DNA of 64,000 bases from an uncultured Alistipes sp. (GTDB lineage Bacteria; Bacteroidota; Bacteroidia; Bacteroidales; Rikenellaceae). Positions 51 through 9,092 of the stretch are shown piece by piece. The notes beneath the pieces were generated by a model. It made no database searches. It was not told the origin of the DNA and worked only from the letters and a program-made list of their open reading frames with translations. The stretch covers positions 1 through 64,000 of the forward strand of contig CASELE010000003.1 of assembly GCA_949288735.1 (NCBI GenBank), written 5' to 3'. The position numbers and the translations under genes are program-made. The stretch's first letter is position 1, and each line of letters starts with the position of its first letter.

Positions 51-821
51 CTACCGCATATCGTCGGAACCGGGATGCTTCGACAACACGGTATGGGGTA
101 CGTCGCCGTGTGTCATGAGCTGGATAGGGCAGTCGTAGGCACGGAGCTGCTCTTCGGTGATACGGTTCGAATCGTGACGATGAAGCGTACGGTTCACGCA
201 TACGATCGTCCGGACGACACTCGAAACGATTCCTATATCGTGCGAAACCATCGCGATGGCCATCCGGCCGCTCAGCTCGCGCAACGTAACGTAGAGCTCT
301 CTTTCGAAGCGGTTGTCCACGAAATTCGTCGGTTCATCGAGCAGCAGCAGTTTCGGTCCGGAGACCACAGCACGGCACAACAGCGCCCGCTGCAACTGTC
401 CGCCCGAGACCTCGCCGACACTCCGGTCCGCCAGCTCGCCGATGCCCGCCGCCTCGAGCAGCGAATGTACCCGCCGGCGGTCCGCCCGGGTATATCGCCC
501 GAAAAGGCCCTTACAGCCCTGCAGCCCCGAAAGAACCGTCTCCTCGACAGAGATAGGGAAGGCCCGGTCGAATCCCGAAAGCTGCGGCATATAGCCGATA
601 AGCCGCTCGCGGCCTCGAAACAGTTCGGGGGCGTACTCGATGCGGCCGGAGTGGGGTATCAGTCCGAGAATAGCCCGCACGAGGGTCGTCTTGCCGCCAC
701 CGTTCGGTCCCACGATTCCCAGGAAATCGTCGGGATAGATATCGAGATCGACCCCGCGGAGCGCCTCGCAGCCGTCGTAGTCGACGCCTACGCCTCTCAG
801 CGATACAAGCGGACGATTCAT
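51..821 (-). CDS. Metal-type ABC transporter ATP-binding protein (ZnuC/MntB-like)
   Basis: The 256-residue product is the ATPase that would power import of a metal ion through an inner-membrane permease. The Walker A motif GPNGGGKTT lies near residue 38, the signature VSGGQLQRA near 138, and Walker B LLLLDEPT near 158, followed by the switch region VSHD. The start overlaps the stop of the substrate-binding gene by 4 bp (ATGA), so the two are translationally coupled. The permease expected in such a set is not visible; it would lie left of base 1 or elsewhere. Family assignment is strong. The metal (Zn, Mn or Fe) cannot be told from sequence alone. Confidence 0.88.
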   Translation of the reverse strand: MNRPLVSLRGVGVDYDGCEALRGVDLDIYPDDFLGIVGPNGGGKTTLVRAILGLIPHSGRIEYAPELFRGRERLIGYMPQLSGFDRAFPISVEETVLSGLQGCKGLFGRYTRADRRRVHSLLEAAGIGELADRSVGEVSGGQLQRALLCRAVVSGPKLLLLDEPTNFVDNRFERELYVTLRELSGRMAIAMVSHDIGIVSSVVRTIVCVNRTLHRHDSNRITEEQLRAYDCPIQLMTHGDVPHTVLSKHPGSDDMR

Positions 822-1666
822 GGCGCGACTATCAGATCGGTGATTCGACGGATGCTCTCCACCACATCCTCCTCGAGCGGGTCGATGACCGCCGCCTCGG
901 CTCCGATGTCATTGCAGAAGGCCTCGACGGCCGATTGCGGGAACTGCCGTTCGTAAAGGAGTCGCCTTACACCATCCGCCCTGGCACGGGCAATAAGCCG
1001 GGCAAGCCGCCGCGCAGATGGCTCGCGGCCCTCCGTTTCGACGGCAACCTGCTCCAGCCCGTAGGCGCGCGCATAGTAGCCCAGAGCAGGGTGGTAGATA
1101 TAGAACACGCGTACGCCATGCTCGCGCAGACTCTCGGCCGTCTCGGCATCGAGTCTTGCAAGTTCCTCGTCAAGTGCACGGTAAGCCGCTGCATACCCTG
1201 TCGAATCGGGAGCCATGCGGCAGAGTGCATCGTAGAGATTGGCCGCCATACGGCGCAATTCACGAGGCGACAGCCACACGTGCGGATCGGCACCGACCAC
1301 ATCACCGTCGGCGCCCTGAATACCGCCTATCGATTCGATACCCCGACAGAGCGTGACGACGCGGGACGAGTCGGCCAAAGGTGCGAGATAGCTTCGCTCG
1401 AAATCGAGCAGTCCGACCGCAACGACCATCCGCGCCTCGTGCAATGTTACCAGCTGACGGGGCGTAGGATCGAAGGTCTCGGGCGAAACGCCAACCGGCA
1501 CCAGCACCTCGATGCGGAAATCGTCGCCCGCGATACGTTCGACAAGCGAACGCAGCGGTGCAATCGAAACACAAATCTCCGCATCGGGAGCAGTTCGCTG
1601 CGACGAACACCCCATAAACGACAGTAATACAATAATAAAAACACGATATATAAAGCGAGGCATCAT
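818..1666 (-). CDS. Metal ABC transporter substrate-binding lipoprotein (ZnuA/TroA family)
   Basis: This 282-residue protein has a hydrophobic signal segment ending in the lipobox SFMGC, so it is a lipoprotein likely held at the periplasmic membrane face. The family core is visible in VSIAPLRSLVERIAGD near the mature N-terminus, the conserved GVSPETFDPTPRQ, and GADPHVWLSP, whose His is a usual metal ligand in the ZnuA/TroA (cluster A-I) family. The His-rich loop seen in many zinc-specific members is absent, which may favour Mn or Fe, but that is inference. It is the first gene of a leftward operon with the ATPase. Two adjacent ATGs (1666, 1663) are possible starts. No clear Zur or MntR box was recognised upstream. 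Confidence 0.87.
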   Translation of the reverse strand: MMPRFIYRVFIIVLLSFMGCSSQRTAPDAEICVSIAPLRSLVERIAGDDFRIEVLVPVGVSPETFDPTPRQLVTLHEARMVVAVGLLDFERSYLAPLADSSRVVTLCRGIESIGGIQGADGDVVGADPHVWLSPRELRRMAANLYDALCRMAPDSTGYAAAYRALDEELARLDAETAESLREHGVRVFYIYHPALGYYARAYGLEQVAVETEGREPSARRLARLIARARADGVRRLLYERQFPQSAVEAFCNDIGAEAAVIDPLEEDVVESIRRITDLIVAP

Positions 1667-1709
1667 ATCACATGAAGTTATATACTATATTTACGGTACA
1701 TAATTACGC

Positions 1710-2360
1710 CTATATGAACCATTGCATCAAATCATCCGGACGCTCCGCCACACCGACGACTCCGGCCCGTTCGAGTTCTTCGCGTGTTCCATACCCCCAC
1801 AGCACACCGATAGCATCGATACCCGCCGTATGGGCTCCCTCCACATCATGGCATCGGTCACCGATCATGGCTGCCATCCGGCGCTCTTCAATCCGTTCGA
1901 GCTTCAAGACCCGCTCAATAACACCCGCCTTGGTGCGACCGGGTCCGTCCGACTCTCCGCCGCAGACAGTCGAAAACCAACGCTCCAGATCGAACCGCCG
2001 CAACACCCGAACGGCCATCTCCTCAGGCTTCGACGTAGCCACCGCCAGACGATATCCCGCAGCCGAAAGTGCAGACAGCAACTCGGCAACGCCCGCATAA
2101 GGGCTGTTTTCAAGGATTCCCTTCGACTCGTACTCACCGCGGAAAAGCGCGACAGCCTCGGCCGTCCGAGCCTCCGAGAGACCGATTTTCCGGAACGAAT
2201 CGACGAGAGGAGGTCCCACGAAACTCCTCAGATCCGACGACAACGGAACATCGACACCCAATCGCTCCAACGCAAAGCGGACACAGCGTACGATGCCCGG
2301 CGCTGAATCGGTCAACGTTCCGTCCAGATCGAAGAGCAAATATCGGTAGGACGACTGCAT
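1710..2360 (-). CDS. HAD-superfamily phosphatase, phosphoglycolate-phosphatase-like
   Basis: The 216-residue protein starts with the HAD motif I FDLDGTLTDS (nucleophile Asp plus acid-base Asp), followed by an alpha-helical cap. It continues with motif II VATSKP, a Lys in GRTKAGVIERV (motif III) and motif IV MIGDRCHDVEGA. This order and the C1-type cap match the Gph/PgmB group, which removes phosphate from small organic phosphates such as phosphoglycolate. Substrate is unproven. It is the last host gene left of the prophage. A leftward -7 element (CAAAGATA on the plus strand) at 2432-2439 probably drives it, giving a leader of about 65 bases. Confidence 0.85.
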   Translation of the reverse strand: MQSSYRYLLFDLDGTLTDSAPGIVRCVRFALERLGVDVPLSSDLRSFVGPPLVDSFRKIGLSEARTAEAVALFRGEYESKGILENSPYAGVAELLSALSAAGYRLAVATSKPEEMAVRVLRRFDLERWFSTVCGGESDGPGRTKAGVIERVLKLERIEERRMAAMIGDRCHDVEGAHTAGIDAIGVLWGYGTREELERAGVVGVAERPDDLMQWFI

Positions 2361-2644: not shown

Positions 2645-2672
2645 ATTTAACATAATGTAAATATTACGTCAT
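2645..2672 (+). repeat. Left dif-like XerCD attachment site (attL)
   Basis: The site has a left arm ATTTAACATAA, a 6-bp centre TGTAAA and a right arm TATTACGTCAT. The left arm is identical to the XerD arm of Escherichia coli dif read on the opposite strand. The same 28-bp arrangement recurs at 8040-8067 with 24 of 28 bases equal and an identical centre, as strand exchange between the two would need. The ATG of the first prophage gene begins at the very next base. Confidence 0.88.
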
Positions 2673-3002
2673 ATGAATCGAGTTGAAATTGAAAAGCTGA
2701 CGAATTTTGTCGTCACGGTCTCAGATCTGTGCGAGTTGGCGGATACTGTGACGTATGCCGATGGTGTACTATATCTCATCGTTGACAAACCTTCGGTTGA
2801 ACTTGTTCACCGCTGTTATATGCAGTTGACTCATTTGCCTGTCAACTCTGCAAGTTTCGAACGGACCCTTGCCGGCACTCTTAATGTGTCGGTCAATCTC
2901 TCTCACCTGGTGGCCTTGCTCTGTCCCCACCTTACTGCGCGTAGTTATCGTAACCCTGTTACATTTGTGAAACGCTATGAAAAATCGAAAAAAGAAAGGT
3001 AG
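2673..3002 (+). CDS. Prophage protein of unknown function, first gene
   Basis: The 109-residue protein begins directly after attL, so in the circular phage genome it would sit just after the joined attachment site. It has no motif I recognise. The middle is moderately hydrophobic with several Cys and His, and the C-terminus is basic (VKRYEKSKKER). It may be regulatory, being the first gene, but nothing in the sequence demonstrates this. Its end overlaps the start of the small basic ORF by 26 bp in another frame, as is common in compact microvirus genomes. Confidence 0.7.
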   Translation: MNRVEIEKLTNFVVTVSDLCELADTVTYADGVLYLIVDKPSVELVHRCYMQLTHLPVNSASFERTLAGTLNVSVNLSHLVALLCPHLTARSYRNPVTFVKRYEKSKKER

Positions 3003-3054
3003 CCGGAAGAAGTCCGGTTATGTGAAGGTAAGACTTGGAGGAGATCGCCTGTAG
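2977..3054 (+). CDS. Candidate J-like basic DNA-packaging peptide (25 aa)
   Basis: This 25-residue ORF starts at an ATG inside the end of the preceding gene and stops 2 bp before the Rep start. It begins MKNRKKKGSRKK and ends VRLGGDRL, with about ten Lys/Arg in total. Microviruses pack ssDNA with a tiny basic protein (J of phiX174 and J-like proteins of gokushoviruses) whose Gly-Gly-containing C-terminus ends in an aromatic or aliphatic residue; the GGDRL ending resembles that. Fit into the operon, composition and tail all support a gene. At this length chance is still possible, and homology cannot be tested here. Confidence 0.6.
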   Translation: MKNRKKKGSRKKSGYVKVRLGGDRL

Positions 3055-3056
3055 TT

Positions 3057-4118
3057 ATGAACTGTCCGTTTTCCATCCGTGTGCCGCATCCTTCGCGTGC
3101 GAAGCTTCAGCGTCAGCGTATGCATATGACTGAGGCCTCGTATGCCTGGGCATGCGAGCATATGGAAAGCTTTCGCAAAGTCGTTAATTGTACACCTTAT
3201 TTTATTGAAGTGCCCTGTGGCCGTTGTCGCATTTGTCGTAAGAAGCGTGGCCAATCGTGGCGTGTTCGCTTGATGCACGAGGCGCAATATGGTAATCATC
3301 GTAATGCAATATTCGTGACGTTGACCCTCGCGCCCAAGTATTATAATAAGGTAAAAGGCAATGAGGCGTATTGTATGCGGTTGTTTCTCGACCGCTGGCG
3401 GAAGAAGTACGGACATGCTCCTGTTCGCTGGTTTACTACTGAACTTGGTGAGGAAAAAGGCCGATTGCATTTTCATGGAATTATCTGGGATGTACCTTTT
3501 TTTCAGGACGGCAACCGGTTCAAGTCGAAAGCTCGTATGAATCGTGAGTTACGTAAACTTTGGAAATACGGCAATACATGGGTTGATTATGTCAAGGAAA
3601 CCACTATTTCGTATATCGTTAAATACATTACGAAACCTTGTGACTATGATCCGAACTATTTTGCAAAGGTCTTCGTCTCTCCGGGTCTTGGCCGAGCTGC
3701 GCTCTCGTCCGCAATGTTGGATAACATTTTGCGGATGTATCGGGAATCGCGTTCCCTGGTAGTCCATGTTGGTGGTTATCCGGTTACGCTGCCTCGGTAT
3801 TATCTTAAACATGCTGTAAAGGATGAACAAAGGAAAGAGGACAATTATTACAAATATTGGCTCGCTGTTCACGGCGATATGGAACCTGTTGACCCGAATA
3901 GTCCCTATTTTGATGGTCGCTATCTCTATCGTAATTACGAGTGCTATTGCCTATCTCGTGAAGCGCTTAGAGAAGTCGAGGTTCAATTCTTACCTGAACC
4001 GTCTCGTTTCGCAGCTCTCGTGGCTGCTGATTGCAGTTGCGATTTATTGCTTGATCAGAATTTGTATAACACATTAAAACACAGTTTGTATGGCATTGCT
4101 CCAGGATGTATTACTTAA
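3057..4118 (+). CDS. Microvirus replication initiator (VP4/Rep, HUH endonuclease)
   Basis: The 353-residue protein should nick the double-stranded phage DNA to start rolling-circle replication. Near residue 54 it carries PCGRCRICRKKR, the Cys-pair basic motif typical of microvirus Rep. The strand FVTLTL follows at about 83, the HUH metal motif GRLHFHG at about 133, and YIVKYITK near 182, where the catalytic Tyr is expected. Length and motif order match alpavirus and gokushovirus VP4. The start lies 2 bp after the small basic ORF, and the end overlaps the capsid gene by 29 bp. No break or missing core motif is seen. Confidence 0.93.
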   Translation: MNCPFSIRVPHPSRAKLQRQRMHMTEASYAWACEHMESFRKVVNCTPYFIEVPCGRCRICRKKRGQSWRVRLMHEAQYGNHRNAIFVTLTLAPKYYNKVKGNEAYCMRLFLDRWRKKYGHAPVRWFTTELGEEKGRLHFHGIIWDVPFFQDGNRFKSKARMNRELRKLWKYGNTWVDYVKETTISYIVKYITKPCDYDPNYFAKVFVSPGLGRAALSSAMLDNILRMYRESRSLVVHVGGYPVTLPRYYLKHAVKDEQRKEDNYYKYWLAVHGDMEPVDPNSPYFDGRYLYRNYECYCLSREALREVEVQFLPEPSRFAALVAADCSCDLLLDQNLYNTLKHSLYGIAPGCIT

Positions 4119-5763
4119 AAAGCCGAAATTTAGTAATTTCGACTGGTCGAAAAAGCTCGGTTTGACTATGATGCCTGGGCCGGTCTACCCTATCATATGT
4201 CGTGAGATGCTCCCCGGTCAGACCGTGCATACGAGTATTATGCACGATATTAAGACCTACCCATTGCAGTCACCTCTCTATGGGTCGTTCCGCTTCCAGG
4301 TTGCGCATTTCTTTGTGCCGACGCGTTTATATGTCCAGGCCATGGATCAGAATAGGCAGATCCCGGACTATGATCCGTCGCAGGTTAAGTTCCCGACGTT
4401 CCAGCTTCCGGATGTCGAGGTCTCCTCTTCGAATGTAGAGACTGGCGAGAAGTATCTCGATGAATATCCGAACGTGCGTAAGTCGTCGTTACTTGAGTGC
4501 CTGGGCATTGGTCAGGGTACTATGGATATGCGTGATCCCTATATGGCAGTGAATCAGAAAAGGTATTGCGCAATTCCTGTTATTGGCTACTACGATATAT
4601 ATCGTAATTATTACGCAAATTCTCAGGAGGACACGTTCCCGATGTTCTTTTGGCGAGATCCTGTACGCGGTACTGCTAATACGACCGTCGAAGCTGTTGA
4701 TTTCAGTAAACTGGATCGATTCATCCAGTTCATAGTGTATAATGGCGATTCACCGTCCGGTAGTCCTATTAATATAACCTATGGTTCGGAAGTTTTTGGA
4801 AACCTGCCAAATCCGATTACGGCCTCTTGTAATGTACCCCTTGGTGGTCTCTGCATGGCGACTATGCGCCCGGATATGTTTACGGCATGGCTTTCGACGA
4901 CGAAATATGAAACCCTTGTTTCACGAGCTGCCGTTACTATGGATGTATCCGAAGATCTGCCCATGCAGACGTCATTCACGATTAACCAGCTTCGTTTTGC
5001 AAACAAGTTGATGCAGTATTTCGAGCGTCAAATTGTTGCAGGTGGTCGGTATGACGACTTTGTCGAGGCGCTGTTCGGTGTGAAAACTTCCCGTGACCTC
5101 TGTATCCCCGAGCTTCTTGGTGTACAGACTTCGCCTATTATCTTCGCGGAGGTTGTCTCTACTGCGTCTGCCGGTGAGGGTCTTGGTGACCTTGGCGGTC
5201 GTGGCTATTCAATATCCAAGAGCCGTACGGTACGTTTCACTGCTTCGGAGCATGGTTATTATATTGCCTGTGCTACGATCATTCCCAACGTCCGGTATAG
5301 TGATGGTATCCCTGCTATGTTCTACCGTACCAATCTCCAGGATGTCTACGCACCTCAGTTCGATACTATCGGATTCCAGCCTGTTCCGGCTCGTCAGATG
5401 CTTGCCCGGCCTCTGCTTGATAGTCAGAATCATATACGAGACTATGGTCCGGGCAATTCGGACATGGTATTCTATCAGCCCGCCTGGACGGAGTATATGA
5501 CCGATGTCTCCAGTTCTCGCGGTGATCTTGCTCTTACCGGTCAGCTCAATTATTGGACCTTGAACCGTAAGTTTGACTTTGAGCAACAGAATTCTGCCGG
5601 TGCTGTGATACCTACTCTGTCGTTCTCTTCGTATCCTCTGCCTGGTATGTTCAATTATCCGTTCACGAATCAGGCGCAAGGTGCTGAGAACTTTATTCTT
5701 GACCTGGAAATCGATTGTAAGGCCCGACTCCCCAAAGGAAAGCGTGTGATGCCTACTCTTTAA
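4090..5763 (+). CDS. Microvirus major capsid protein (VP1, F-like)
   Basis: This 557-residue protein forms the T=1 microvirus shell. The N-terminal segment carries MLPGQTVHTSIMHDI and then YGSFRFQVAHFFVPTR; the strand leading into HFFVP is a signature of F-like microvirus capsid proteins, which use a single jelly-roll fold. The C-terminal third has FDFEQQ and the basic end KGKRVMPTL. The start overlaps the Rep end in another frame. Length is in the usual alpavirus/gokushovirus range and there is no break. It is the best marker for placing the phage in a phylogeny. Confidence 0.94.
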   Translation: MALLQDVLLKKPKFSNFDWSKKLGLTMMPGPVYPIICREMLPGQTVHTSIMHDIKTYPLQSPLYGSFRFQVAHFFVPTRLYVQAMDQNRQIPDYDPSQVKFPTFQLPDVEVSSSNVETGEKYLDEYPNVRKSSLLECLGIGQGTMDMRDPYMAVNQKRYCAIPVIGYYDIYRNYYANSQEDTFPMFFWRDPVRGTANTTVEAVDFSKLDRFIQFIVYNGDSPSGSPINITYGSEVFGNLPNPITASCNVPLGGLCMATMRPDMFTAWLSTTKYETLVSRAAVTMDVSEDLPMQTSFTINQLRFANKLMQYFERQIVAGGRYDDFVEALFGVKTSRDLCIPELLGVQTSPIIFAEVVSTASAGEGLGDLGGRGYSISKSRTVRFTASEHGYYIACATIIPNVRYSDGIPAMFYRTNLQDVYAPQFDTIGFQPVPARQMLARPLLDSQNHIRDYGPGNSDMVFYQPAWTEYMTDVSSSRGDLALTGQLNYWTLNRKFDFEQQNSAGAVIPTLSFSSYPLPGMFNYPFTNQAQGAENFILDLEIDCKARLPKGKRVMPTL

Positions 5764-5775
5764 AAACATTTTAAT

Positions 5776-6027
5776 ATGAAACCTTATCAGACTACTGTAA
5801 TTTTTGCGGCTCGGGCCGAGTTCCTTCCCAATGAGAAGCTTTATAAGGTTCTCGTCTCGCACTCTTGCGTGAGTGTGCTTTCGTCGGCTCCGGTCGTTCA
5901 GCTGGCAATTCCGATGAATGAGTATGAGAGTTCCTCTGTACTTGATGAGCTCGTTTCGGTAGTAGAATACTACGCGCGCGCGCGTGACAATGAAAATGAA
6001 AACAATAACACGTGCGCGTGCGAATAA
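5776..6027 (+). CDS. Small prophage protein of unknown function downstream of VP1
   Basis: The 83-residue ORF starts 12 bp after the capsid stop. The first 50 residues look beta-rich and hydrophobic (TTVIFAARAEF, VVQLAIPMNEY); the C-terminus is acidic and Asn-rich with a final CACE. A short protein between VP1 and the next gene is common in alpavirus-like genomes, but I do not recognise the family. Its coding sequence contains a (CG)6 run at 5973-5984, odd in AT-rich DNA. A perfect hairpin follows directly downstream. Confidence 0.7.
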   Translation: MKPYQTTVIFAARAEFLPNEKLYKVLVSHSCVSVLSSAPVVQLAIPMNEYESSSVLDELVSVVEYYARARDNENENNNTCACE

Positions 6028-6033
6028 CTAGAG

Positions 6034-6070
6034 GTAGATAGCAAGCTCGTTAATACAGCTTGCTATCTAC
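6034..6070 (+). terminator. Perfect 14-bp hairpin after the capsid-side genes
   Basis: GTAGATAGCAAGCT at 6034-6047 pairs base for base with its complement at 6057-6070 around a 9-base loop. No T-run follows, so it is not a textbook intrinsic terminator. It may end or stabilise the capsid transcript, or be a fold of the ssDNA genome used in replication or packaging. Confidence 0.6.
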
Positions 6071-6092
6071 ACCTTAATTAAAACATGAAATA

Positions 6093-6136
6093 ATTGCTCC
6101 GTGAGGATGTCAGATCTTGTATCTGACGTCCGCAAT
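6093..6136 (+). repeat. Second, interrupted hairpin over the start of the next gene
   Basis: GTCAGAT at 6109-6115 pairs with ATCTGAC at 6121-6127 around CTTGT. An outer ATTGC at 6093-6097 pairs with GCAAT at 6132-6136, with a GGA/TCC pair between. The candidate ATG at 6135 lies at the 3' foot, so the fold could limit translation of the downstream gene or mark a replication element. Confidence 0.5.
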
Positions 6137-6470
6137 GGAGCCTGACGAAGTCACTATTATGGCCTACGTTTATGATCCTAGATTCACCGGCCGCACGCTC
6201 TCTGAGCAGATAGCTATTGCGGCTAAGACTGGCGTCTCCGAGATGCTCGCGGACGCTGTAACGACGTTTGACGACGATATAAATGCTTACGACGTCGATT
6301 CCGATATTCGCGTCTCTCGCATGGATAAGGCGGAGATGGCGTTTGCCGCCGCCGAGGAAAAGAGAGCAGCGGCAATACGTGAGCGCAGCGCTGAAGAAGC
6401 AGCGCAGCGCAATCCTGTAGTGGATAATGCATCTGCTGCTGGTACTGAGAGTGGGGGCGCCGGGGCATAG
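6135..6470 (+). CDS. Candidate VP3-type internal scaffolding protein
   Basis: Starting at the ATG at 6135 the product has 111 residues; a second ATG at 6159 (MAYVYDPRF) gives 103. I do not count the upstream TTG in the hairpin loop. The sequence has DPRFTGRTLSEQIAIAAKTG, an acidic stretch DDDINAYDVDSDIR and a long charged Ala-rich helix. Position between capsid and pilot genes, small size, acidity and helical content suit a VP3-like internal scaffolding protein, but I see no decisive motif. It could be another virion or assembly factor. Confidence 0.6.
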   Translation: MEPDEVTIMAYVYDPRFTGRTLSEQIAIAAKTGVSEMLADAVTTFDDDINAYDVDSDIRVSRMDKAEMAFAAAEEKRAAAIRERSAEEAAQRNPVVDNASAAGTESGGAGA

Positions 6471-6496
6471 CCCCCCTCTCTTGACAATCTATGCCA

Positions 6497-6548
6497 GACG
6501 CGGAATAGGTTTCCGCGTCGTCCGGCGCCCCCCCCCCCTTAAAAAAAA
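6497..6548 (+). promoter_or_regulatory. Hairpin, C11 tract and A8 tract before the pilot gene
   Basis: GACGCGGAA at 6497-6505 pairs perfectly with TTCCGCGTC at 6511-6519. Eleven C residues follow at 6528-6538, then TT and eight A residues just before the ATG at 6553. The A-rich leader is what Bacteroidetes ribosomes favour. The long C-tract is unusual here and prone to slippage, though it lies outside the pilot reading frame. Confidence 0.55.
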
Positions 6549-6552
6549 TCTT

Positions 6553-7743
6553 ATGGCTAATAATAATAATTCTTTTTCGTTAGGCTTGGACCTTGGTTCC
6601 CTCGGTGGTGCTTTGTTTGGAGGTCTTACGCAGATTAACGCAGGTAAACGTCAGGAACGTTTGATGCGCAAGCAGGCCGATATACAGGACTGGGCTGCTG
6701 GTCGTCAGCTCGAACGTGATAAGGAGCTGATGGATTATCAGAATCAGCAGCAGATCGATTTCTGGAATATGAATAACGAGTATAATTCGGCTTCGGCCCA
6801 ACGTGAGAGGCTAGAGGATGCGAATCTTCTAGGTGCTTCGTTGATGGGTAATGGTTCTATGGGTACTCCGGCTACGATGCCTTCTGCCTCTGGTGCGACA
6901 TCCTCTACCCCGTCGATGCCTTTCCATTCCGAGATTTCCGCTACTCCTGGCCTAGACAAGGCCATGAAGGCTATATCTTTGATGCAAGGCATTGCGAATG
7001 TTGGATTAATAAGGGCGACCGCGGAGGAAAAAAGTAAGTCATCATTGTTGAAGGAGGCTCAGACGAAACAGACGCTTGCGAATACTATGTTGACGAACGA
7101 AAAGATAAAGGGCCTTGGCATTGAGAATAATATAAAAGCAATTGATTTGTCAATTGCCGAGGCTACGAAAACGGATAGAATTGCGTTGCAGTCTCTTGCA
7201 GTTTCTACGGCGGTTAAAAATCTTGAATTGCTTGACGAGAGAATTCTTGATGCGCGTTTTCGTAATAATAAATTGAATCACGCCGAATATGCCGATATGA
7301 TGCAGGGCGTTGCGTTGAAAGTGGCTGAAGTCGCGAGAGTTAAAGCAGCTACGAACTTGGCATTGCAACAAATCGGCGAATCCAGGTCTCGTGTGTTCCT
7401 TAATATGGCTTTGCGAGAAAAGGCGCGATATGATTCCCAGGAGTCAGCGGCGAATACTGAAGTACTTCGGCAAACTGTCGAGCATATCTCAGCTATGATG
7501 GAATTGCTGGGCGTTGAAAAATCGATAAAAGATGAATTGTTGGAGCAAGAAAGGTATAATACTAAGACTTATAAAGTCTATCGAATTGGTCAGATTGTGA
7601 ATCAGTATGCCGATGCTGCAGAAGCTATATTCACTACAGTCTTTGATGGCGTCCGTACTTTCCGTGATAATGACAAAGAAAAAGAGGCTCGAGGCATGAA
7701 AAAGATGGCCTTTAATTTGGCTCTATCAGCTTTAAAAAAGTAG
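6553..7743 (+). CDS. Microvirus DNA pilot protein (VP2, H-like)
   Basis: The 396-residue protein should carry the ssDNA across the host envelope. The N-terminus has a Gly-rich hydrophobic stretch (GLDLGSLGGALFGG) followed by a charged helix, and the rest is Gln/Ala/Lys-rich and predicted to be long alpha-helix or coiled coil, as in pilot proteins. The open frame continues upstream to 6427, but the ATG at 6553 follows an A-tract and opens the family-typical N-terminus MANNNNSFSLG. No frameshift is seen. Position downstream of the capsid and scaffold genes supports the call. Confidence 0.85.
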   Translation: MANNNNSFSLGLDLGSLGGALFGGLTQINAGKRQERLMRKQADIQDWAAGRQLERDKELMDYQNQQQIDFWNMNNEYNSASAQRERLEDANLLGASLMGNGSMGTPATMPSASGATSSTPSMPFHSEISATPGLDKAMKAISLMQGIANVGLIRATAEEKSKSSLLKEAQTKQTLANTMLTNEKIKGLGIENNIKAIDLSIAEATKTDRIALQSLAVSTAVKNLELLDERILDARFRNNKLNHAEYADMMQGVALKVAEVARVKAATNLALQQIGESRSRVFLNMALREKARYDSQESAANTEVLRQTVEHISAMMELLGVEKSIKDELLEQERYNTKTYKVYRIGQIVNQYADAAEAIFTTVFDGVRTFRDNDKEKEARGMKKMAFNLALSALKK

Positions 7744-7771
7744 TATTGTTTTTTTTTTGAGAAAAATTGCG

Positions 7772-7779
7772 TATGTTTG
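7772..7779 (+). promoter_or_regulatory. -7 element TATGTTTG almost touching the last prophage gene
   Basis: An exact TAnnTTTG box ends 3 bases before the ATG at 7783, so a transcript from it would be nearly leaderless. The remnant copy at 8235-8242 has the same arrangement, which supports function. Confidence 0.5.
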
Positions 7780-8039
7780 TGCATGGATTCTTTAGAGCTG
7801 GTGATGGAGCGTACTGCCGAGAATATGGTGTACGCAATGGAGAATGTCTCGGAAATTCTGTTAGATGCTTCCGAGGGCGAAATTGTGTCAGAAACTATTG
7901 TTTTTTGGCCGCTGTTCTATGGTTTGGCGTTGGGTGCCTCTCTGGCTGTACTCGTCGTGTCTATTTTAAAACGTCGACGCCGGAAGTAACAATTGAATAT
8001 AGCGATTCGCTCAAAGTAAGATTCCCTTTACAAAAGTGA
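7773..8039 (+). CDS. Overlapping frame with conserved CTRRVYFK tail (lipoprotein-like or frameshift product)
   Basis: This frame overlaps the 68-residue membrane protein. Its last part contains a hydrophobic run ending in LSGC, a lipobox-like site, then TRRVYFKTSTPEV and ends PLQK right at attR. The same tail exists in the remnant ORF at 8246-8461, with most differences at third codon positions in this frame; this argues for real coding. How it is started is unclear: the ATG at 7773 lies within the -7 box, a downstream non-ATG start is possible, or a -1 shift from the other frame. It resembles the overlapping Rz/Rz1 spanin layout of larger phages. Confidence 0.5.
   Translation: MFVHGFFRAGDGAYCREYGVRNGECLGNSVRCFRGRNCVRNYCFLAAVLWFGVGCLSGCTRRVYFKTSTPEVTIEYSDSLKVRFPLQK
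7783..7989 (+). CDS. Small prophage membrane protein, possible lysis or envelope factor
   Basis: From the ATG at 7783 the product has 68 residues: an N-terminal amphipathic part (MDSLELVMERTAENM), one clear transmembrane helix (WPLFYGLALGASLAVLVVSI) and a basic end KRRRRK. This is a holin-like or anchor-like build, though function is unproven. The heptamer TTTAAAA at 7965-7971, in frame as T TTA AAA, is a classic -1 slippery site. A slip there would replace the basic tail with the conserved tail of the overlapping frame. No homologue can be named from sequence. Confidence 0.6.
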   Translation: MDSLELVMERTAENMVYAMENVSEILLDASEGEIVSETIVFWPLFYGLALGASLAVLVVSILKRRRRK

Positions 8040-8067
8040 ATTTAACGTATTGTAAATATTACATCAC
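8040..8067 (+). repeat. Right dif-like XerCD attachment site (attR)
   Basis: The site has a left arm ATTTAACGTAT, centre TGTAAA and right arm TATTACATCAC, with 24 of 28 bases as in the left site. It begins one base after the stop of the last prophage frame. An ATG again follows at the next base (8068), as on the left. Confidence 0.85.
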
Positions 8068-8234
8068 ATGAGAGCGGTTGCAGAACATCGTGCTGAGTGG
8101 TCTCGATTTCAGGAAATTGGAGGTCATGGGCCCTGGTGGTATCCCTGATTTGGCGCTTTGTGCAGCAAATTTTTGGAGATCCGAATTTGAAGAGTTGCGG
8201 AAATTATGAATTAGATTGGTAATTGAAAAAAATG

Positions 8235-8242
8235 TATATTTG
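8235..8242 (+). promoter_or_regulatory. -7 element TATATTTG for the remnant small gene
   Basis: An exact TAnnTTTG element ends 3 bases before the ATG at 8246, the same near-leaderless geometry as at 7772-7779. A TTG at 8216-8218 is a weak -33 candidate with short spacing. Confidence 0.5.
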
Positions 8243-8245
8243 CGT

Positions 8246-8461
8246 ATGCGAAATGATTTCGATAGTGTATTTGATCTGATTTTCAGATTGGTTCGGGGTT
8301 ATCTGAAAGCAATATTATTTCTCGGTGTGTTGCTTTTTTTGGTGATGGCGCTTTCGCATATGTGTTCGTGTACTCGTCGCGTCTATTTTAAGACGTCTAC
8401 CCCGGATGTGAGTGTTGAGTACCGCGATTCGCTTAAGGCGCGAATCCCTTTACAATCGTGA
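8246..8461 (+). CDS. Small membrane or lipoprotein-like protein, second copy
   Basis: The 71-residue product has an N-terminal helix, a hydrophobic segment (YLKAILFLGVLLFLVMAL), then CSCTRRVYFKTSTPDV and the end RIPLQS. The tail matches that of the intact prophage's last frame with mainly synonymous differences, so it was under selection as protein. Here signal segment and tail are in a single frame, unlike the prophage copy. A Cys right after the hydrophobic run could be lipidated, though MCSC is a poor lipobox. A TATATTTG box at 8235-8242 lies 3 bases before the ATG, so the gene may still be expressed. Confidence 0.65.
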   Translation: MRNDFDSVFDLIFRLVRGYLKAILFLGVLLFLVMALSHMCSCTRRVYFKTSTPDVSVEYRDSLKARIPLQS

Positions 8462-8468
8462 CTCGGCT

Positions 8469-9026
8469 TCAACGGCGGCGATAATCTTCGAACGTTCCGT
8501 CTTCATACAACACGACGACACGCACCGGAAGACGACCTGACGACGATATTCCATTCTGCGCCACAGAGCCTTGCGAAGCGGCCGCAGGCTCCTCCGACCC
8601 CGTGTGCGCCGCAGCTTCGGTCGCACGGCGAGAATCTTCGCCAACCGGGTCGAACAGCGTGGCAGCCTGGCCCGAAACAGCATACTCTGAGACCTTTGTC
8701 CTTTCGCCGGCCGACGCAGTCTCCGAGCGACGAACATCCTTCACCGTATCTTCAGCGTCTACACGTTCCGGCAAATCGCCGCCATCGAACCTGGCTACAG
8801 CCTCCTTATCATAACCAGGCCGATACATACGCTCCGAATCGAGCAGCAACCAATCGGGATCGAGTTGCGGAAAGCGGCGGAAAAGGCGCTGCAAAAACTC
8901 GAACCCAGGCTTGTTACGTCCGGATATCAAATGCGAAATATTGGAAGGACGTACACCGAGCGCATCTGCCAACTGACTCGGTGTCAATCCTTCACTCTGC
9001 ATCAGTTTTAACAGCTTTTCTCTCAT
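8469..9026 (-). CDS. XRE-family helix-turn-helix regulator
   Basis: The start at 9026 gives 185 residues (MREKLLKLMQSEGL). Residues 1-60 form an HTH: LTPSQLADALGVRPSNIS then HLISGRNKPG. After it comes LDPDWLLLDSERMYRP, a phrase typical of Bacteroidales phage-type regulators. The middle is low-complexity and acidic, and the end RVVVLYEDGTFEDYRRR is a conserved tail of this group. It is convergent with the prophage remnant and ends 7 bp from it, so it may be a host gene or a leftover immunity repressor. TTTGTAAAC-type inverted repeats lie over its promoter, suggesting autoregulation. Confidence 0.8.
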   Translation of the reverse strand: MREKLLKLMQSEGLTPSQLADALGVRPSNISHLISGRNKPGFEFLQRLFRRFPQLDPDWLLLDSERMYRPGYDKEAVARFDGGDLPERVDAEDTVKDVRRSETASAGERTKVSEYAVSGQAATLFDPVGEDSRRATEAAAHTGSEEPAAASQGSVAQNGISSSGRLPVRVVVLYEDGTFEDYRRR

Positions 9027-9039
9027 ATCGGATTTTTTA

Positions 9040-9092
9040 CAAAAATAAAACAATTTTAATTTGTAAACAACCTTTCACCGTTTACAAATGTA
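9040..9092 (-). promoter_or_regulatory. Promoter and candidate operator of the XRE gene
   Basis: TTTGTAAAC at 9060-9068 and GTTTACAAA at 9080-9088 form a perfect inverted repeat with an 11-bp spacer. Two leftward -7 boxes are present: TATTTTTG (9040-9047) and TACATTTG (9085-9092). The latter overlaps the right half-site, so a repressor bound here would block the polymerase. Confidence 0.55.

Follow-up and report, generated by a model that had tools for sequence, protein, structure and literature searches.

Xer-dependent lysogeny of microviruses at dif, the site used by bacteria to resolve chromosome dimers, was proposed for Bacteroidetes in 2011 (Krupovic and Forterre, PMC3091885), and microvirus lysogeny at dif was proven genetically in Escherichia coli in 2020 (Kirchberger and Ochman, PMC7062461). 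The authors of the former study could define an empty site for only one of their proviruses (BMV1-7) and could not test the position of dif by GC skew (PMC3091885); the enterogokushovirus EC6098 was found to depend for its integration on XerC and XerD and on each of the two arms of its own site, with complementation failing for the xerD mutant (PMC7062461). Here, a stretch of 64,000 nucleotides from an uncultured Alistipes sp. (GenBank assembly GCA_949288735.1, contig CASELE010000003.1, positions 1 to 64,000; hereafter the window) was analyzed, in which a 5.4 kb element at positions 2645–8067 is a microvirus prophage located at the Alistipes dif. Integrase-free microvirus lysogeny at dif is already known, as a first-pass annotation of the window (made from its letters alone) had rightly stated, and the Alistipes case adds a new genus; no description of dif-integrated microviruses in Alistipes was found in a literature search of incomplete coverage.

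The element, its attachment sites and the host locus

The host assembly comprises 1.66 Mb in 44 contigs, with a GC content of 60.3% (46.7% in the element). For comparison we used a set of 151 Alistipes genomes, and dif-like sites were scored in bits with a matrix trained on 58 chromosomal sites of the genus (26 positions scored); arms were named XerC-type or XerD-type by their likeness to those of E. coli. The two attachment sites, attL and attR, lie exactly where first annotated and are 28-bp direct repeats that share the centre TGTAAA and 24 of 28 bases and are spaced 5,395 bp apart, and the outer arm of attL (ATTTAACATAA) does equal the E. coli XerD arm, as its reverse complement (11/11). 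They score 43.8 bits (attL) and 31.8 bits (attR), while the next-best place in the window, the reverse strand of attL itself, reaches 3.7 bits and shuffled windows at most 1.4, values that rule out chance as the source of the pair. Sites at many loci unrelated to dif, which the first-pass annotation had named as evidence to the contrary, were not found, attL and attR being the only two matches in the whole assembly with up to 3 mismatches allowed. When the outer arms are joined, they give ATTTAACATAATGTAAATATTACATCA, which is the genus consensus dif over all 26 scored positions (45.6 bits) and exactly what a crossover inside the central region predicts.

Characters of Microviridae are present, namely a VP1/F-type capsid (34% identical to that of Dipodfec virus UOA04_Rod_768), a rolling-circle Rep whose sequence, read directly, contains an HUH motif and paired tyrosines, a pilot protein, and a genome in the range of 4–6 kb (predicted circle 5,395 bp). 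The three genes had been proposed initially, together with the lack of a recombinase, and the family searches bore this out (Table 1), with no match to a recombinase family among the open reading frames (ORFs) of the element that were scanned (Pfam and PHROG families). Among these ORFs the element is thus without its own recombinase, as are the integrative mobile elements exploiting Xer (IMEX), and it resembles them also in lying at the host dif between two dif-like end sites that have a compatible centre.

Capture at a dif-like site, the remaining part of the initial proposal, was examined across the genus. A dif-like core pattern (1 mismatch) occurs in 109 of the 151 genomes, nearly always once, whereas a reversed control pattern had 2 matches in all across the same set. 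The gene of a helix-turn-helix (HTH) regulator that adjoins the prophage on the right is present in 124 genomes, and in 23 of the 29 relatives read at this gene the core TTT(A/T)ACATAA-6-TATT was located within 1.5 kb of it. Among named genomes, exact matches to the dif pattern came from Alistipes and one Rikenellaceae bacterium. In an uncultured Alistipes metagenome-assembled genome (L087) the order ABC, ZnuA-like, HAD, dif, HTH, HIT, SpoT is that of the window minus the prophage, and its dif is empty. Judged by this conservation, the empty site and five other prophages at the same kind of site in other species (see below), the capture site is a conserved, usually single-copy, intergenic dif-like locus of Alistipes. 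In the complete relative G127 the skew turns from positive to negative over approximately 2.98–3.15 Mb and the site lies at 3.178 Mb, although the curve is noisy and hence merely supportive of a placement at the terminus. Two observations on this locus are added here. The best DnaA match of G127 (3167896–3168381) is some 10 kb away from the dif-like site, on the terminus side rather than at the origin expected from skew. In four other relatives (L033, L037, L041 and L090, in the last at 4202–4228) the dif-like site is in reverse orientation with respect to the HTH gene, and the genes around it keep their usual order in L090.

Table 1. Features of the prophage and its surroundings in the window
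Feature	Position	Strand	Evidence and remarks
Host left flank: ABC ATPase, ZnuA-like binding protein, HAD phosphatase	51..2360	-	Names from sequence likeness, not from the family scan
attL	2645..2672	+	XerD-type host arm ATTTAACATAA, centre TGTAAA, XerC-type arm TATTACGTCAT; near-perfect Alistipes dif
ORF, 109 aa, no function assigned	2673..3002	+	Abuts attL; no family match; no phage relative at E 0.1
Rep, rolling-circle replication initiator, VP4-like, 353 aa	3057..4118	+	PF23343, E 7e-14; phrog_942, E 3e-35
Major capsid protein VP1/F, 557 aa	4090..5763	+	PF02305, E 2.4e-24; phrog_514, E 1.6e-59
ORF, 83 aa, no function assigned	5776..6027	+	No family match
ORF, 117 aa, in the capsid-pilot interval	6117..6470	+	No family match; placed like a scaffold-like gene, a putative role
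DNA pilot protein, VP2/H-like, 396 aa	6553..7743	+	phrog_8689, E 2.4e-6; phrog_31272, E 9e-6
Small ORF with hydrophobic stretch at the right end, no function assigned	7783..7989	+	Overlaps another frame ending CTRRVYFKTSTPEVTIEYSDSLKVRFPLQK
attR	8040..8067	+	XerD-type phage arm ATTTAACGTAT (2 mismatches), centre TGTAAA, XerC-type host arm TATTACATCAC
Remnant of a second, related microvirus, 394 bp	8068..8461	+	Outside attR; right att site not left
Host HTH regulator	8469..9053	-	PF01381; neighbour of dif throughout the genus

A run of C followed by TT and a run of A (around 6530–6548) lies just upstream of the pilot gene. The borders, initially described as precise, stood as far as the att sites at the 2645 and 8067 ends are concerned, but the right one is not clean. 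Over its last 93 bp, the remnant outside attR (8068–8461) matches the right end of the element (7947–8039) at 78% identity, which rules out an ordinary host spacer, and phage-derived DNA therefore probably spans from 2645 to about 8461. The simplest account would be an earlier, related microvirus that sat in tandem at dif and was later deleted down to its ends. Just some tens of bases separate dif from the HTH gene in the empty-site relative L087, with the caveat that the length of this spacer varies widely among relatives. The remnant contains a complete small ORF (approximately 8249–8461) whose final part corresponds to the right end of the main element, and a C-terminal peptide, CTRRVYFKTSTP(D/E)V..., is common to 7767–8039 and 8249–8461. 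In the main element the hydrophobic ORF and this CTRRVYFKTSTP peptide are read in different frames, while in the remnant they share one, a difference that either a frameshift or overlapping genes could produce.

Related microviruses in Alistipes and in gut viromes

A microvirus capsid was found in 6 of the 151 genomes, and all six have the prophage at a dif-like site, with the central hexamer of the host itself at both prophage ends. The hexamers vary among hosts: TGTAAA in the window, G022 and G058, TAGTAA in G053, TATAAA in G076 and CATAAA in G143. The paired sites read ATTTAACATAA TGTAAA TATTATTTCAT and CTATACAATAA TGTAAA TATTATTTCAT in G022, ATTTAACATAA TGTAAA TATTACGACAA and AGTAATCTTAA TGTAAA TATTACGACAA in G058, ATTTAACATAA TAGTAA TATTAATTCAA and ATTTAACATAA TAGTAA GTATTGAAAAC in G053, and ATTTTACATAA TATAAA TATTATTTCAT and ATTTAACATAA TATAAA GTATTGAGGCC in G076. 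In G143 the pilot gene stands by a full dif at one contig end and Rep and capsid stand by GCGGTACATAA CATAAA TATTACGACAT at the end of another contig; the two presumably belong to one prophage. A common hexamer is a requirement of Xer strand exchange, although part of the identity could instead come from repair after the exchange.

The arms differ among these prophages. Four of them (the window, G022, G058 and G143) have a phage site with an intact XerC-type arm but a weakened XerD-type arm, carrying 2 to 4 or more mismatches (2 in the window, 4 in G058). The other two, G053 and G076, show the opposite: their XerD-type arm is complete, and nothing like an XerC-type arm can be recognised. We tentatively propose, at somewhat less than an even chance, that one and the same host dif serves microviruses of Alistipes with two kinds of attachment site that mirror each other. 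In the first, the XerC arm and the centre would be kept and the XerD arm weakened; in the second, of which the free virus MG945631 is another example, the XerD arm and the centre would be kept and the XerC arm would be beyond recognition. Counted from the site on the HTH side, the gene order in G076 (L059) is pilot, Rep, capsid, which places the att site at a different point of the circle than in the window. Another uncultured Alistipes contig (L086) encodes a pilot-like peptide (2700–2885) about 0.7 kb from a full dif (2003–2029), with a weaker site at 171, and is possibly a further prophage at dif.

In the capsid tree, from which the BMV1-7 sequences were left out, the Alistipes prophages did not form a single group. 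As several branches are long, only starred groups were relied on, in which G058 was placed with G143, G076 with Dulem virus 180, G022 with two rodent viruses, and the window with Dipodfec virus UOA04_Rod_768. Searches with peptide patterns of the single capsid (genome_contigs and viral_contigs) retrieved no relatives, such patterns reaching close relatives only.

Among free viruses, 12 of the best capsid relatives were scored with the genus matrix. Four of them have one clear site, namely Dulem virus 200 (34.7 bits), bajarodmic virus 24 (27.1), bajarodmic virus 19 (27.1) and MG945631 (19.3). The site of MG945567 is weak (13.4, against a maximum of 12.0 for shuffled versions of the scanned genomes), and the other 7 have nothing clear. 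In addition, blastn with a dif-like 32-mer against 50,697 phage records (E < 0.01) listed five records, four of them microviruses, and a further search added bajarodmic virus 755 as a carrier of such a site. The sites lie mostly in the pilot-rep interval, as in the window, with the exception of Dulem virus 180, where the site is inside an annotated ORF. Since these records were picked for similarity, they give no frequency. The fifth blastn record (L150, MT836585.1) is an unannotated 14.7 kb contig of a human faecal 'Bacteriophage sp.' with a full Alistipes-type dif at 3383 and no microvirus capsid or Rep match, and may be a chromosome fragment. The pattern TAATGTAAATATTAYRTCA matched 13 viral contigs, of which the two of microvirus size (L095 and L099) encode other phage genes and were dismissed as chance, and stricter dif patterns matched 1 and 0 viral contigs.

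Proposed route of integration and its alternatives

We consider it very probable that the element is a temperate microvirus exploiting the dimer-resolution machinery of the host chromosome, that is, Xer recombination at dif. The double-stranded replicative circle would carry one dif-like site, ATTTAACGTAT TGTAAA TATTACGTCAT, which XerC and XerD would pair with the host dif, ATTTAACATAA TGTAAA TATTACATCAC. Strand exchange across the identical central hexamer would then yield the integrated element, with a near-perfect dif at attL and a weaker attR carrying the phage arm. As a near-perfect dif would be left at attL, chromosome dimers should still be resolvable, and excision by the reverse reaction is to be expected. 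The sequences themselves show the element, both sites, the genus-wide locus, the mosaic arms, the empty site, the matching hexamers of the six prophages and the free relatives with this kind of site; what XerC and XerD do, the assignment of the arms, catalysis, reversibility and present activity are what we infer from them. XerC-like (C9) and XerD-like (C33) recombinases are encoded in the host genome.

Several points weigh against this reading. Excision, virions and the binding of XerCD to the sites are all predicted rather than directly evidenced. Both Xer candidates score under the curated equivalog cut-offs, one of them above the subfamily cut-off. The placement at the terminus depends on the GC skew of G127 as the one complete relative, and in the host itself the assembly is fragmented and the window starts at a contig end, leaving the skew unreadable on the left.

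The alternatives differ in how much of the Xer route they dispute. Entry could have occurred by Xer and the prophage could now be a fixed, dead relic that no longer excises, a view differing solely on present activity, which we regard as unlikely though not negligible. That an earlier microvirus in this place has decayed to 394 bp and lost its right site would agree with it, as would the degenerate XerD-type arm of attR with its lower score, but the genes for Rep, capsid and pilot have uninterrupted, full-length frames, the predicted circle junction (ATTTAACGTATTGTAAATATTACGTCAT) scores 30.0 bits, the same as the weakest chromosomal training site, and the sites of free relatives score 27–35.

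Very improbable, in our estimation, is an entry without Xer, either by homologous recombination into an older dif prophage or by an integrase acting in trans: the adjoining related remnant could supply homology and the genome encodes two further tyrosine recombinases, yet a perfect host dif results when the outer arms are joined, as expected from a crossover within the site, and the five other prophages obey the same rule with different hexamers. Even less room is left for an assembly artefact in which a free microvirus genome was fused to a host contig. The joins coincide with two att sites having hybrid arms, the host genes on both sides are in conserved order, and the same arrangement is found in other assemblies; the points in its favour are the fragmentation into 44 contigs and the differing composition of the element. 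A route through folded single-stranded DNA, as in CTX-phi, was rejected, since no inverted pair of dif-like sites was detected inside the element, where only the two direct-repeat end sites score.

Comparison with known systems

Of the classes of Xer-exploiting elements in the review PMC4246890, that of TLC-phi from Vibrio cholerae has a dif-like XerC arm and centre and a degenerate XerD arm, as have the window, G022, G058 and G143. The strong degeneration of the XerD arm that defines this class fits G022, G058 (4 mismatches) and G143, while the window has just 2 mismatches, and TLC-phi differs in being a filamentous satellite phage and not a microvirus. The two inverted dif-like sites of the CTX-phi class, which fold in single-stranded DNA, have no counterpart in the window element. 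The kind of site in G053 and G076 falls outside the three classes of the review, and if both kinds work, the one lacking the XerC arm would be an Xer route beyond these classes.

Free circular microviruses from the gut, for example Dulem virus 200, bajarodmic virus 24 and Dipodfec virus UOA04_Rod_841, also carry a single dif-like site, which in most cases lies between pilot and rep. They differ in not being prophages, those in the capsid search share 29–34% capsid identity with the window, and the sources given in their records are animals rather than host bacteria. Most of the microviruses that abound in gut viromes lack a known host. In each of the prophages described here the phage site and the host dif can be matched base for base, and the attachment site offers a possible means of connecting free gut microviruses with Alistipes. 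If there are indeed two working kinds of site, the attP hexamer could assign hosts to uncultured gut microviruses.

Among described prophages, EC6098 is similar to the window in that a full dif stands upstream and a phage dif downstream, the latter varying chiefly in its spacer and XerD arm (PMC7062461), but it comes from another host phylum and from the gokushovirus lineage, an affiliation that the window lineage need not share. The proviruses BMV1-7, from a paper that does not mention Alistipes (PMC3091885), are integrase-free proviruses of Bacteroidales like the window element; they too encode Rep, capsid and pilot proteins and are flanked by imperfect direct repeats of dif-like sequence. 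The dif proposal made for Bacteroidetes in that study is supported here in a new genus, by an empty site and six cases.

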